Below, piece by piece: positions 36,604 to 40,540 of a DNA stretch of 64,000 bases. How positions within the stretch are numbered: the first letter of the stretch is position 1; every line of letters starts with the position of its first letter. A program made the translations under genes and the position numbers. The notes under the pieces are model-generated. The model did no database searches. It was not told the origin of the DNA and saw nothing but the letters and a program-made list of their open reading frames with translations. Where the stretch lies: positions 1-64,000 of the forward strand of contig CAIKNP010000015.1 in assembly GCA_903828785.1 (NCBI GenBank). The letters run 5' to 3'. The stretch comes from an uncultured Actinomycetes bacterium. Its GTDB lineage: Bacteria; Actinomycetota; Acidimicrobiia; Acidimicrobiales; RAAP-2.

Positions 36604-37638
36604 CTAGTTGGACGACGAAAGTACTTCGGCGGCGGTGAATTCTCGATCTCCAATGGAGTCAAACGATGACGCCACCGGCGCCCCCAGCGCCACGTCCAAC
36701 ACTGAACCTAGAACCCTCAACACTTCGCGTAACTCGGGAGGTGGTGGAAAATACTCGTCCTCAACGACGTCTCTGTATTCCTCCACCCCTTCGCTAGGGT
36801 TGAGAAAAGCCAGAACTTCAGCTACCAGTGACTCTGGCGCCGATGCTCCTGCGGTAACGGCCACCACGCCTTCGAGGTTTGAGGGCAACTCCTCAACCCC
36901 GTTCACTCGCAACACGAGGGGGCAGCCGGCATTTTTGGCAACTTTCGTTAAGGCCACGGTGTTGGAGGAATTTGCCGATCCGATGACAATGACCACGTCA
37001 GCTCGGTGGGCAATTGCTCGGAGAGCTCCCTGACGGTTGGTCGTGGCGAAACAAAGGTCGGAGCGCGCTGGCATCCATAGTTCAGGGAAAACTTCTTCGG
37101 CGTGTTCACGCAAACCACTCCACTCGTCCATGCTCAAAGTGGTTTGCGAGAGTAGCGCGAAGGGTCCGGAGGCACCTACGAGCGCATCAATATCGGAGGT
37201 CGACTGGATCAAGTGCACCGACTCCGGGGCCACCGCCATTGTGCCGACGGCCTCTTCGTGGCCTTCGTGACCCACGTACAGGACCGTGTAGCCCTTTCGA
37301 GCGCGCACTTTGAGCTCGTGGTGCACTTTCGTCACGAGCGGGCACACCGCATCAATGACCGTGCCTCCGCCCCTTTGGGCCGCCGCGATGACTTCGGGCG
37401 GCGATCCGTGCGCACTCAGCATGATGGGAAAGCCCGCTGGAACCTCGGCTACGTCGTCGACGAAGACGACGCCCAGGCCCTCGAAATGACTGACAACGAA
37501 CTGATTGTGCACAATTTCGTGGTAGCAGTACACCGGGGGAGCGAACACTCGGGTCATCCAGTCCAAGGCCTTAATCGCCTTTTCGACACCCGCGCAAAAA
37601 CCGCGAGGTGAGGCGAGGAGAACCTTTTGCACTGGCAC
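36604..37638 (-). CDS. ispH: 4-hydroxy-3-methylbut-2-enyl diphosphate reductase
   Basis: 344 residues. An iron-sulfur enzyme that makes IPP and DMAPP in the last step of the MEP isoprenoid pathway. The three cluster Cys are Cys15 (RGFCAGVEKA), Cys99 (DAVCPLVTKVH) and Cys196 (SDLCFATTNRQ). The TNRQ and GSANSSNT motifs are also present. The start is GTG at 37638 with TAGGCT exactly six bases upstream, so the mRNA is probably leaderless. It diverges from the PDZ/radical-SAM gene. Confidence 0.96.
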   Translation of the reverse strand: MPVQKVLLASPRGFCAGVEKAIKALDWMTRVFAPPVYCYHEIVHNQFVVSHFEGLGVVFVDDVAEVPAGFPIMLSAHGSPPEVIAAAQRGGGTVIDAVCPLVTKVHHELKVRARKGYTVLYVGHEGHEEAVGTMAVAPESVHLIQSTSDIDALVGASGPFALLSQTTLSMDEWSGLREHAEEVFPELWMPARSDLCFATTNRQGALRAIAHRADVVIVIGSANSSNTVALTKVAKNAGCPLVLRVNGVEELPSNLEGVVAVTAGASAPESLVAEVLAFLNPSEGVEEYRDVVEDEYFPPPPELREVLRVLGSVLDVALGAPVASSFDSIGDREFTAAEVLSSSN

Positions 37639-37644
37639 ACCGCC

Positions 37645-37650
37645 AGCCTA
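37645..37650 (-). promoter_or_regulatory. -10 box, leaderless promoter of ispH
   Basis: TAGGCT on the minus strand, followed by six bases and the GTG at 37638. Confidence 0.55.
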
Positions 37651-37674
37651 GTTTCCCCACTGCGCTAATGCCTC

Positions 37675-37680
37675 TAGGCT
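37675..37680 (+). promoter_or_regulatory. -10 box, leaderless promoter of the PDZ/radical-SAM gene and der
   Basis: TAGGCT followed by six bases and GTG at 37687. It mirrors the ispH box 24 bases away, giving a symmetric divergent promoter pair. Confidence 0.55.
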
Positions 37681-37686
37681 AGAGAG

Positions 37687-39063
37687 GTGTCGGGTGCTCG
37701 TATTTCTGCAATTTCGCCGTCGTCGCCCGCTGCGCAGTGCGACATCGCGATAGGTGACGTCCTCGTTTCAGTAAATGGGCGCCAGCCGACAGACATCATT
37801 GAGTACCAACAACTCATCGACGGCCCCGAAGTTATCTTGTTACTACAGCGAGACGGCGAGGCGCTCAAGCGCCGAGTTCGCATTGTGAAGGACGCGGGAC
37901 AGCCGCTCGGTCTCTCTATTGATTCGGCAGTTTTTGACCGAATTCGAACCTGCGATAACCACTGTTCTTTCTGCTTTATTTACCAACTCCCCAAGGGAAT
38001 GCGTCGGTCGCTCTACGTTAAGGATGACGACTTTCGCTTGTCATTTCTTTACGGCAACTACACCACGCTGACGCGTTTCACCGAGTTTGACCTCGAACGA
38101 GTTATCGAGGAGAAACTCAGCCCCCTCTACGTTTCCATCCACAGCACGAATCCCGAATTACGCGCCGACATGCTCCGCAATCCCCGGGGGGCAACCAGCC
38201 TACGCTGGCTGCGCGAGCTCTTGAAGGCTGGAGTCGAGGTGCACGCGCAGTTGGTGGTCTGCCCCGGTGTGAACGACGGTGACGAACTTGAACGAACGCT
38301 CATCGACGCTCTATCCCTGTATCCCGAATTGACCTCGGTGGCACTGGTTCCCGTTGGCGTCTCGGCCTTCTCTCTCGAAAGCAGCATGCGCTCCCACGAA
38401 GTCGAAGAAGCGCTGGTGGTCGTGGCACTCGCCGAACGCTTCCAGCAGCTCTCCTCGGATCTGCTCGGTCGGGTGTCGGTCTTCGCATCGGACGAGTTCT
38501 ACCTCGTGGCGGGACTGACGCCACCTTCGGCCACGAAGTTTGACAGTCTGGACCAGGCCGAAAACGGCATCGGACTGGTCGCCGCCTTCGTCGAGAGTTT
38601 CACCGGAGCTCGCGACATGGAGAAATTAGGCACTGGCTTCTTTCAATCCGTTGATGGCGCACCAGCGTGGGGTTATCGAGCTGAACACGGTGGGAGGGAA
38701 GATCTTGATCGTGGCGACGCGGTTGTGATCATTACGGGAGAATACGCTCAGCCCATTTTGCGAGGTTTGTTGGATGACGCCGGATTCACCGACGTTGAGG
38801 TCATCGCCGTCCCCAACGACTATTTCGGTGGGAATATCAAAGTCGCCGGGCTCATCACGGGTGTCGATCTCGCCAAAACGCTCCAAGGTATCCCGGAGAG
38901 TACCGTCTGTCTCATCCCGGATGTCTGTCTATCCGAAGGACGCTTCCTCGATGGCTTGACGCTGGACGATCTGCCACGACCCGTGACTACCGTTCGTACG
39001 ACGGGCCAGGATCTTCGCACCACCCTTGAGCGCTCGCGCCACGAACGATTGGTTAGATCATGA
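37687..39063 (+). CDS. DUF512 protein: PDZ domain plus radical-SAM-like domain
   Basis: 458 residues. An N-terminal PDZ-like domain (residues 1-65, ISPSSPAAQCDIAIGDVLVSVNG) precedes a radical-SAM-like core with Cys89, Cys93 and Cys96 (CDNHCSFC) and the family segment FIYQLPKGMRRSLYVKDDDFRLSFLYGN. The C-terminal DUF512 region spans about 230-430. The family is conserved in Gram-positives and often lies beside der, but its reaction is unknown. It overlaps der by 4 nt, which suggests a link with ribosome assembly or RNA modification; that is inference. Confidence 0.9.
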   Translation: MSGARISAISPSSPAAQCDIAIGDVLVSVNGRQPTDIIEYQQLIDGPEVILLLQRDGEALKRRVRIVKDAGQPLGLSIDSAVFDRIRTCDNHCSFCFIYQLPKGMRRSLYVKDDDFRLSFLYGNYTTLTRFTEFDLERVIEEKLSPLYVSIHSTNPELRADMLRNPRGATSLRWLRELLKAGVEVHAQLVVCPGVNDGDELERTLIDALSLYPELTSVALVPVGVSAFSLESSMRSHEVEEALVVVALAERFQQLSSDLLGRVSVFASDEFYLVAGLTPPSATKFDSLDQAENGIGLVAAFVESFTGARDMEKLGTGFFQSVDGAPAWGYRAEHGGREDLDRGDAVVIITGEYAQPILRGLLDDAGFTDVEVIAVPNDYFGGNIKVAGLITGVDLAKTLQGIPESTVCLIPDVCLSEGRFLDGLTLDDLPRPVTTVRTTGQDLRTTLERSRHERLVRS

Positions 39064-40355
39064 AAAAGCCCCAGGTTGTCATTGTCGGCCGCCCCAACGT
39101 AGGGAAGAGTTCATTAGTCAATCGGCTGGCCGCCAAGCGCATCGCGGTTGTCGAAGAACACCGCGGCGTCACCCGAGACCGTAAGGCCGTCGAGGTGGAG
39201 TGGACCGGCACCACCTTTGACGTGGTCGATACTGGTGGCTGGTTGGAATCAGGCAGCGAGCTCGAATCTAAGGTGTCCAAGCAAGCCGATCTGGCACTCT
39301 CCGAAGCTGATCTCGTCTTGCTCGTGGTCGATGTACTCACCGGCCTGGTTGATGAAGACACGCACGCAGCCCGGTGGGCCCTGCGCAGTGGTCGACCAGT
39401 AATGCTGGTGGTCAATAAAGTTGACGACACCTTGCACGAAGCTAGTTCGTGGGAATTTCTTTCCCTCGGGGCCGGCGAGCCGCATTGCATTTCCGCCCTC
39501 CACGGTCGCGGTGCGGGCGACCTTCTCGACGCCATCGTCGCCCAGGTCGGCGCCTTGCAACCCAATATGCCCGGGGACGACATGACCGAAGACGGAGCGC
39601 TTCGCGTTGCTCTGGTCGGACGACCCAATGTTGGCAAATCAACCCTGTTTAATCAACTCATTGGTGAAGAACGCTCTGTCGTGCACGACATGCCCGGCAC
39701 AACGCGTGACGCCATTGACACGCTGATTGAGACGGAGCAAGGGTTGATTCGTTTTATCGACACTGCGGGTATGCGCCGTCGAGCGAAGACGGAAGCGGGA
39801 CTCGAAACCTACGCAGTCCTACGAAGTCTTGATGCGCTGGATCGAGCGGACATCGCAATTTTGGTCATTGACGCCACGGTGGGCGCAACGGGTCAGGATC
39901 AGCGTTTGGCGGAACGAATTTCGGCCGCCGGCTGCCCTTCCCTCGTCGTGTTGAACAAGTGGGAGCTCGTTCCAGTGGAAGGTCGAGACTCAGTCTTGGC
40001 TGGCGTGGGCGAGAAACTGGCTTTCTTGGGTGACGCTCCCGTCATAAAGACAACCGCCACTTCGGGGAAGGGAGTCCACAAGATTCTGCCAGCGCTGTCC
40101 ATTGCGGCTGAGGATTACGTCAAACGAGTCCCCACTGGATCACTCAATCGAGCTATCCGCGACCTACAGATGAAACAGCCTGCTCCAACTGGCAAGATTC
40201 GCTACGCCGTGCAAGGGGCTTCGGAGCCGCCAACCTTCACTCTTTTCGTCTCTGGTCGCTTGCCCACTACCTACCTTCGCTACGTCGAGCGTTCGTTGCG
40301 GGAACGTTTCGAATTGGGTTCGACGCCAATCAGAGTTCGGGTGCGAACCGAATAG
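39060..40355 (+). CDS. der: ribosome-assembly GTPase Der (EngA)
   Basis: 431 residues with tandem GTPase domains: G1 motifs GRPNVGKSS (near 9-17) and GRPNVGKST (near 187-195), G3 motifs DTGG and DTAG, G4 motifs NKVD and NKW. The C-terminal KH-like domain (about 355-431) ends in RVRVRTE. Der matures the 50S subunit. It overlaps the DUF512 gene by 4 nt and shares a TAGTG junction with the following 61-residue gene. Confidence 0.96.
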   Translation: MKKPQVVIVGRPNVGKSSLVNRLAAKRIAVVEEHRGVTRDRKAVEVEWTGTTFDVVDTGGWLESGSELESKVSKQADLALSEADLVLLVVDVLTGLVDEDTHAARWALRSGRPVMLVVNKVDDTLHEASSWEFLSLGAGEPHCISALHGRGAGDLLDAIVAQVGALQPNMPGDDMTEDGALRVALVGRPNVGKSTLFNQLIGEERSVVHDMPGTTRDAIDTLIETEQGLIRFIDTAGMRRRAKTEAGLETYAVLRSLDALDRADIAILVIDATVGATGQDQRLAERISAAGCPSLVVLNKWELVPVEGRDSVLAGVGEKLAFLGDAPVIKTTATSGKGVHKILPALSIAAEDYVKRVPTGSLNRAIRDLQMKQPAPTGKIRYAVQGASEPPTFTLFVSGRLPTTYLRYVERSLRERFELGSTPIRVRVRTE

Positions 40356-40540
40356 TGGCGAATTGGTGCGAACATTGTGACCGTCCCGTCGAAGGAGAGG
40401 TTTGCGAAGTGTGCAATCAAGCCATTGTCGCCCCAACGCGCGAAGCCTTACCCTGGCGCTGGCGCTTCTTTATCTTCGCCTCAGTGATTTATCTTATTTA
40501 CCGCTTGTACCAAGTGGCAACGTGGTTATTGCGTAAATAG
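40355..40540 (+). CDS. small zinc-ribbon membrane protein
   Basis: 61 residues. An N-terminal CxxC pair (CEHC, then CEVC) at residues 5-20 can form a treble-clef or rubredoxin-like zinc knuckle, and one membrane helix follows (about 36-58, RFFIFASVIYLIYRLY). GTG start overlapping the der stop as TAGTG. I do not know a function. Its coupling to der suggests co-expression with the ribosome-assembly GTPase. Confidence 0.75.
   Translation: MANWCEHCDRPVEGEVCEVCNQAIVAPTREALPWRWRFFIFASVIYLIYRLYQVATWLLRK

Follow-up and report, generated by a model that had tools for sequence, protein, structure and literature searches.

In the 64,000-nucleotide stretch of DNA analysed here (the window; contig CAIKNP010000015.1 of an uncultured Actinomycetes bacterium, whose genome assembly comprises 1.56 Mb in 28 contigs), positions 37687-40540 form a single short operon of three genes, presumably read as one leaderless transcript. 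The first gene encodes a DUF512 protein that belongs, as judged from its sequence, to the family of PDZ-type, cobalamin-dependent radical S-adenosylmethionine (SAM) enzymes; cobalamin binding and the formation of methylcobalamin (MeCbl) and 5′-deoxyadenosine (5′-dA) are predicted for it from its relatives. The second gene is der. Because the enzyme gene stands directly before der in nearly every enzyme-bearing genome examined, Der or a ribosome intermediate is the first target to consider. The chances appear about even that the operon provides an optional B12-dependent protein methylase, which would have Der, or a 50S intermediate that Der handles, as its client. The three genes are as follows.

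37687-39063, + strand: DUF512 protein gene, 458 amino acids (aa), GTG start (list of open reading frames, ORFs)
39060-40355, + strand: der (engA), ribosome-biogenesis GTPase, 431 aa, ATG start (ORF list, Pfam and NCBIfam)
40355-40540, + strand: gene for a 61-aa zinc-ribbon-like peptide with a single membrane helix, GTG start (ORF list and our own hidden Markov model, HMM)

An earlier note on this DNA had described three coupled genes, and its positions and junctions are exact to the base: the DUF512 gene and der share a 4-nt ATGA overlap, and at the TAGTG junction the G of the der stop codon TAG is the first base of the GTG start of the peptide gene.

Genetic linkage of the DUF512 gene to der

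The Der protein of the window has both tandem G domains, matched in two stretches by Pfam MMR_HSR1 (PF01926), together with KH_dom-like (PF14714), and it scores 462.8 against the NCBIfam model GTPase_EngA (TIGR03594; cut-off 306.7). In a sample of 396 Actinomycetota genomes, 148 carry DUF512 and 369 carry the KH domain of Der. We read 166 distinct DUF512 loci of this phylum as DNA, and in all 166 the DUF512 gene is followed on its own strand by der. This set contains 127 loci fetched via a DUF512 match or its place alone, 20 picked from the genomes of a separate 79-genome count and 19 from genomes outside that count; seven duplicate loci were dropped, and the set does not include L231-L234 and so genome G136. 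The 19 loci from genomes not preselected for adjacency have der next in every case. The separate count covered the 79 genomes having DUF512 and Der both among the matches listed, which were drawn from 127 of the 148 DUF512 genomes, with 19 of the window's own order, G206 and G341 left out (in G341, der is next to the DUF512 gene). Der is adjacent in 75 of the 79. It lies 1.8-2.8 kb off in three others (G405, G351 and G136) and on another contig in the last, G127, where the DUF512 gene stands at a contig end and is followed by a Der-like N-terminus, of which 41 residues are present.

The two genes also have other neighbours. Of the testable loci, 68 of 83 in Acidimicrobiia and 21 of 34 elsewhere have ispH no more than 700 bp upstream; the second figure becomes 23 of 34 when two overlapping genes are counted (L151 and L184, scored as lacking ispH though it overlaps the DUF512 gene by a few bases). 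On the other side, plsY is found near der in 0 of 71 Acidimicrobiia loci versus 24 of 34 other testable loci, and gpsA in 0 of 71 versus 29 of 34. The window differs from PDZ-type relatives in that its ispH points away from the DUF512 gene and that a lineage-specific peptide gene takes the place of plsY or gpsA behind der. These neighbours give rise to a competing explanation, in which the linkage goes back to an old growth cluster of mixed content (aroA-cmk-plsC-ispH-DUF512-der-plsY-gpsA) and the enzyme acts elsewhere, for example on a membrane-lipid or isoprenoid enzyme or product, while merely riding in the operon. The shikimate, nucleotide, phospholipid and isoprenoid genes that stand beside it in many distant Actinomycetota, and the frequent upstream place of IspH, which is also an iron-sulfur (FeS) enzyme, lend this explanation some weight; we place it below an even chance. 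What speaks against it is that der is the sole partner present in all 166 loci, whereas ispH, cmk, plsC, plsY and gpsA are each absent from some. Upstream sequence of 4.5 kb or more is available for 77 loci; eight of them have no aroA, cmk, plsC or ispH, yet keep the DUF512-der pair. In addition, der adjoins the enzyme gene in all eight loci fetched for family f38 (L179-L186), whose enzymes lack PDZ and align from the radical-SAM part onward. The co-occurrence is therefore far over chance adjacency by both the locus and the genome counts, and it persists where other cluster genes are missing, which answers the doubt in the earlier note that it might go no further than simple adjacency.

The link as such is not new. 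A gene for a PDZ "Fe-S oxidoreductase" near engA and gpsA, with a proposed role in translation, was described in 2019 (PMC6411480, which also names Geobacter sulfurreducens GSU1997), so the engA link and a translation role were already in print. That protein has the same architecture and engA/gpsA neighbourhood as ours; unlike in the present analysis, the part of the text covered contains neither a cobalamin assignment nor the term DUF512. Compared with that paper, the new elements are a DUF512-der link outlasting the other cluster genes, the clean losses of DUF512 and the peptide family. Overall, the observation is true and mostly explained by published work, and the link to der is sharper and testable in comparison with the papers searched.

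The DUF512 protein as a probable cobalamin-dependent radical-SAM enzyme

The protein scores above the Pfam cut-offs for PDZ_6 (47.5 bits), Radical_SAM_2 (204.9) and DUF512 (121.7). Its closest solved relative is csDUF512 of Clostridium sporogenes (9cg1), with a sequence E value of 4.6e-72 and about 31% identity in the fold alignment; Foldseek comparison of the window's model with 9cg1 gave an E value of 2.1e-32, template modelling scores of 0.64/0.66 and a root-mean-square deviation of 7.0, which identifies the 9cg1 fold. The model has a mean predicted local distance difference test (pLDDT) value of 76.9 and is low at residues 84-89, 107-124 and 315-336. The next solved relatives, by both sequence and fold, are 9cg2 (the Pyrococcus enzyme) and then Mmp10. 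Two NCBIfam models match below their thresholds: TIGR03279 (cyano_FeS_chp) at 303.7 bits, with its best stretch at residues 5-307 and under the equivalog cut-off of 574.7, and TIGR03278 (Mmp10) at 48.3 bits against a cut-off of 350. Two motifs can be located in the gene.

37951-37977, + strand: codons for C89, C93, C96 (CX3CX2C) and F97, the FeS cluster loop, invariant in the alignment
38023-38031, + strand: codons for D113-D115, the DDD motif (D111-D113 of csDUF512), invariant, role as described in PMC11659888

The order PDZ-radical SAM-DUF512 is common to the window protein, csDUF512 and its PDZ-type kin, as are the CX3CX2C-F and DDD motifs, a Thr contacting the 5,6-dimethylbenzimidazole (DMB) tail of cobalamin, a Leu below the cobalt and a carboxylate loop in the PDZ domain. 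In the window protein these are C89, C93, C96, F97, D113-D115, T350, L389 and the L74-G75 loop, corresponding in csDUF512 to C87/C91/C94, F95, DDD, the DMB-contacting Thr, Leu366 and the PDZ carboxylate loop. HMMER aligns L389 with L366 of csDUF512; T350 aligns with the Pyrococcus Thr, one residue off the published numbering, and is paired with T323 of csDUF512 via the ITG motif only, the HMMER alignment of that stretch being different. C89, C93, C96 and F97 are invariant in 23 aligned sequences (without L044, which has a stop codon in the chosen range), D113-D115 are invariant in the alignments, and the Cys loop is kept in all locus groups compared, except for two truncated loci. In 88 other Acidimicrobiia loci the Cys residues, F97, DDD and L389 are likewise invariant, and the T350 position is T or S; among 31 PDZ-containing loci from other families, the corresponding position is T in 21. 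Three public contigs encoding Acidimicrobiia-type DUF512 loci (L118, L122 and L092) are titled Bifidobacterium breve or Acidobacteriota; these titles look wrong.

The DUF512 domain was shown to bind cobalamin in 2024, with the substrate left unknown in the part of the paper covered (PMC11659888). There, csDUF512 and three other proteins converted hydroxocobalamin (OHCbl) to MeCbl with SAM and produced small amounts of 5′-dA, and the main text does not contain the words GTPase or EngA. A 2025 review, likewise seen in part, lists DUF512 proteins as class 2 cobalamin radical-SAM enzymes and asks for their function (PMC13331322). It also supports, together with the fold match, the same class of C-terminal cobalamin domain in the window protein and in Mmp10, which differs in having no PDZ domain. 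The DUF512 protein had been called unassigned in the earlier note; this holds for its substrate and no longer for its family, since it is a relative of the crystallised 9cg1 protein with the key residues conserved. Cobalamin use by the organism itself is plausible because its genome encodes a corrinoid adenosyltransferase and has, at two further places, B12-binding domains that score above the cut-off.

Candidate clients and the weight of the evidence

The DUF512 enzyme would most likely be a protein methylase whose target is an unreactive carbon; its client could be recognised through the PDZ groove, the active-site face or both. In the proposed scheme, a first SAM would methylate cob(I)alamin (as drawn in PMC11659888), a second SAM would yield a 5′-dA radical that could abstract a hydrogen atom from the unreactive carbon, and MeCbl would then donate its methyl group to the client. 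A protein client is likely because the same-class Mmp10 modifies protein and because a PDZ domain is present; Der, or a protein of the 50S intermediate that it handles, is the likely choice because der is the most faithful partner. The operon would make enzyme and client together, and the modification would be an optional tuning, with Der functional without it. Passing from linkage to substrate is where the argument is weak, and we rate this step as about even.

Der acts in 50S assembly, and we know of no precedent for a cobalamin-dependent step in that process. Extended to all PDZ-type DUF512 enzymes, this reading would make them methylases that depend on B12 and modify either Der or a protein of the 50S intermediate to which Der is bound. 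That would introduce such a step, one repeatedly lost without visible change in Der; we consider this broader form tentative and rather doubtful. In the literature available, mostly open-access and including PMC6058365 and PMC5943405, the portions covered name no DUF512 substrate and do not join cobalamin, radical SAM, ribosome assembly and Der.

A different target could be the ribosomal RNA itself, in that the enzyme might methylate a 23S rRNA base exposed while Der sits on the 50S precursor. The assembly role of Der suits this idea, as does the precedent of the radical-SAM enzymes RlmN and Cfr, which methylate A2503. It is unlikely, considering that the PDZ domain indicates a protein partner, that the Pfam scan of the DUF512 protein found no RNA-binding domain, and that Mmp10, of the same class, is the methylase of an arginine in methyl-coenzyme M reductase and so acts on protein (PMC11659888, in the part covered).

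Several observations count against Der or a Der-bound 50S protein as the client. The adjacency has breaks: a gap of about 0.7-0.8 kb separates the DUF512 gene from der in G405 and G351, and in G136 (L231, 4339-5545) the pair is truly interrupted, by two ORFs of 183 and 220 aa on the same strand, which leaves the odds of the reading unchanged. Presumably, slr2030 and der of Synechocystis are not neighbours either. Among 20 DUF512-free loci, 12 keep ispH beside der with DUF512 alone missing, two of these clean losses (L159 and L160) being in the same genus as DUF512-bearing genomes (L148 and L149); the remaining eight have other gene orders. DUF512 has gone just as cleanly from G019, which belongs to the window's genus, and from G204 and G056, which belong to its order. 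No column of the Der alignment separates 37 Der proteins from DUF512-bearing genomes from 18 of DUF512-free ones, at cut-offs of more than 85% in the former and at least 30 points lower in the latter, and the C-termini of Der are variable, with tails varying freely in PDZ-containing lineages. Finally, the B12-binding domain PF02310 is absent from five DUF512-bearing genomes (G394, G450, G330, G403 and G376), and some families have another residue in place of the DMB-contacting Thr; cobalamin use is therefore perhaps not universal in the family.

The losses can be read further. Der is independent of the DUF512 enzyme in lineages without DUF512, since DUF512-free genomes often keep the cluster and Escherichia coli and Bacillus subtilis have Der alone; 14 control genomes gave DUF512 matches in two, Synechococcus elongatus being one of them, and Der matches in 10. 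G035 and G036, with neither DUF512 nor a true Der found, look like assembly gaps because true Der is missing there as well. In Clostridioides difficile, der presumably lies downstream of the DUF512 gene. That DUF512 gene is reported as essential by transposon sequencing, and the authors, in the part covered, warn that such calls may be distorted by polarity (PMC12548448). The cassettes described for Synechocystis, as far as that source was covered, were placed between slr2030 and slr2031 and are uninformative on loss of slr2030. The C-terminus of Der was considered as a PDZ ligand and set aside on account of the freely varying tails; with no separating column as well, Der as a PDZ ligand or as a specially evolved substrate is without sequence support. 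As a lead only for the ligand question, Der proteins of the PDZ-less family f38 lack the usual basic tail and stop flush at KFKY-like residues (seven of eight loci readable, one lineage).

The distribution of cobalamin features was compared in the same way. The DMB-contacting Thr is replaced by V, L, C, A or S in L148 and L149 (f46), L153, L154 and L195 (f53), L151 (f66), and L155, L188 and L197 (f54). The five genomes without PF02310 belong to f46, f53 and f66. In f54 the residue is A, C or S, and two tested genomes have 10 and 19 PF02310 matches; Thr replacement and absence of PF02310 are thus not tied, and the replaced Thr fails as a sign of lost cobalamin use. With regard to B12 economy as a cause of loss, two DUF512-bearing and two DUF512-free genomes tested from genus g192 are all without PF02310.

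The portions covered of the structural paper and the review leave open the substrate of about 6000 DUF512 proteins (PMC11659888, PMC13331322). With an adjacency to der that outlasts all other genes of the cluster, the candidates come down to a single GTPase, itself widely essential, and its 50S client, so that the question becomes a mass-spectrometry experiment. Should methylation of Der or its 50S client prove wrong, neighbours of der in the cluster would not automatically be ribosome factors.

The membrane peptide and transcription of the operon

The 61-aa peptide matches no Pfam or NCBIfam family over cut-off (DZR, 16.1 bits versus 27.3). Among 29 family members the commonest weak match is Zn_ribbon_19, found in 17 and under cut-off (best E value 1.1e-4). 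The CxxC membrane protein proposed in the earlier note is borne out, as the 29 aligned relatives keep the CxxC pair, one without the last Cys, and a conserved membrane segment; the core motif is W-C-x2-C ... C-x2-C ... PW(H)F ... YL-x-W-R. In the AlphaFold model, short strands make up the N-terminus and residues 34-60 form one long helix (mean pLDDT 85.5). Some relatives near der have lost Cys residues: four (L075, L076, L081 and L097) have fewer than three and keep a PWHF-YLGYR-like membrane part, L173 (G104) and L152 (G116) lack most or all zinc-ribbon Cys with the membrane motif kept, and a Cys-poor relative with the membrane part stands directly behind der in G258 (L174), which has no DUF512.

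The peptide HMM, which was grown on the same loci searched, found relatives near der in 77 of the 82 loci that could be tested; another 36 were skipped because their sequence ends too soon after der. All 34 testable genus-like loci (those from the window's genus or its close relatives) have one directly behind der. Of 48 other Acidimicrobiia loci, 43 have one, which lies within 120 bp (17), at 0.1-1.7 kb (19) or at 1.7-3.7 kb (seven). The 1-nt overlap with der occurs in 37 of 39 genus-like loci versus two of 76 others. Across the 396 genomes, strong full-length matches occur in 30, all in the window's class, and weaker matches elsewhere are mostly partial and inside frames of 500-980 residues. 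Compared by eye, 29 of the 30 strong places are within about 6 kb of DUF512 or der, and that of G038 is about 130 kb from DUF512. The peptide is still coupled to der in G019 and directly behind it in G204, both without DUF512. Because strong matches lie near der and are retained when DUF512 is absent, the peptide is a real, unnamed Acidimicrobiia family tied to the chromosomal place of der and not to DUF512. It can be regarded as a separate membrane-anchored zinc-ribbon-like protein that probably shares the der transcript in the window's genus, and no tie between it and the enzyme chemistry was found in the neighbourhood and family comparisons.

These results bear on the earlier suggestion that all three proteins make up one membrane-tethered modification step in ribosome assembly. 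The coupling of the three genes in the window's genus is in its favour, and we nonetheless consider it very improbable: strong matches are confined to Acidimicrobiia, the peptide stays with der in the DUF512-free G019 and G204, and it is 0.1-3.7 kb from der in 26 of the 43 other Acidimicrobiia loci with a match, often at least one gene away. The conserved triple and the tethering step are therefore unsupported. A SpoIIE-type phosphatase gene is found behind der at L041:1722-2800, where it stands between der and the peptide gene, and at L034:1898-2992.

Two further features lie upstream of the operon.

36604-37638, - strand: ispH, divergent neighbour outside the operon unit, given as context (ORF list, family searches)
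37675-37680, + strand: TAGGCT, a -10-like TANNNT box 6 nt ahead of the DUF512 start (sequence; putative leaderless start)

Der could start at an NTGA overlap in all 46 genus-like loci, in 66 of 88 other Acidimicrobiia loci (both totals containing a few duplicate records) and in nine of 38 loci outside these groups. Of 118 distinct Acidimicrobiia loci, 101 have a TANNNT box 5-8 nt ahead of the DUF512 start that was chosen, compared with 0-9 at 14 control offsets. From this close placement, a leaderless message beginning at the DUF512 gene is the simple reading and probable in Acidimicrobiia. In the window, ispH and the DUF512 gene share a 48-bp intergenic region. Of 44 genus-like loci, counted with duplicates, 30 carry AGCCTA (TAGGCT on the opposite strand) at 15-70 bp ahead of the DUF512 start (window region 37600-37690), which suggests a divergent promoter pair serving ispH and the DUF512 gene.

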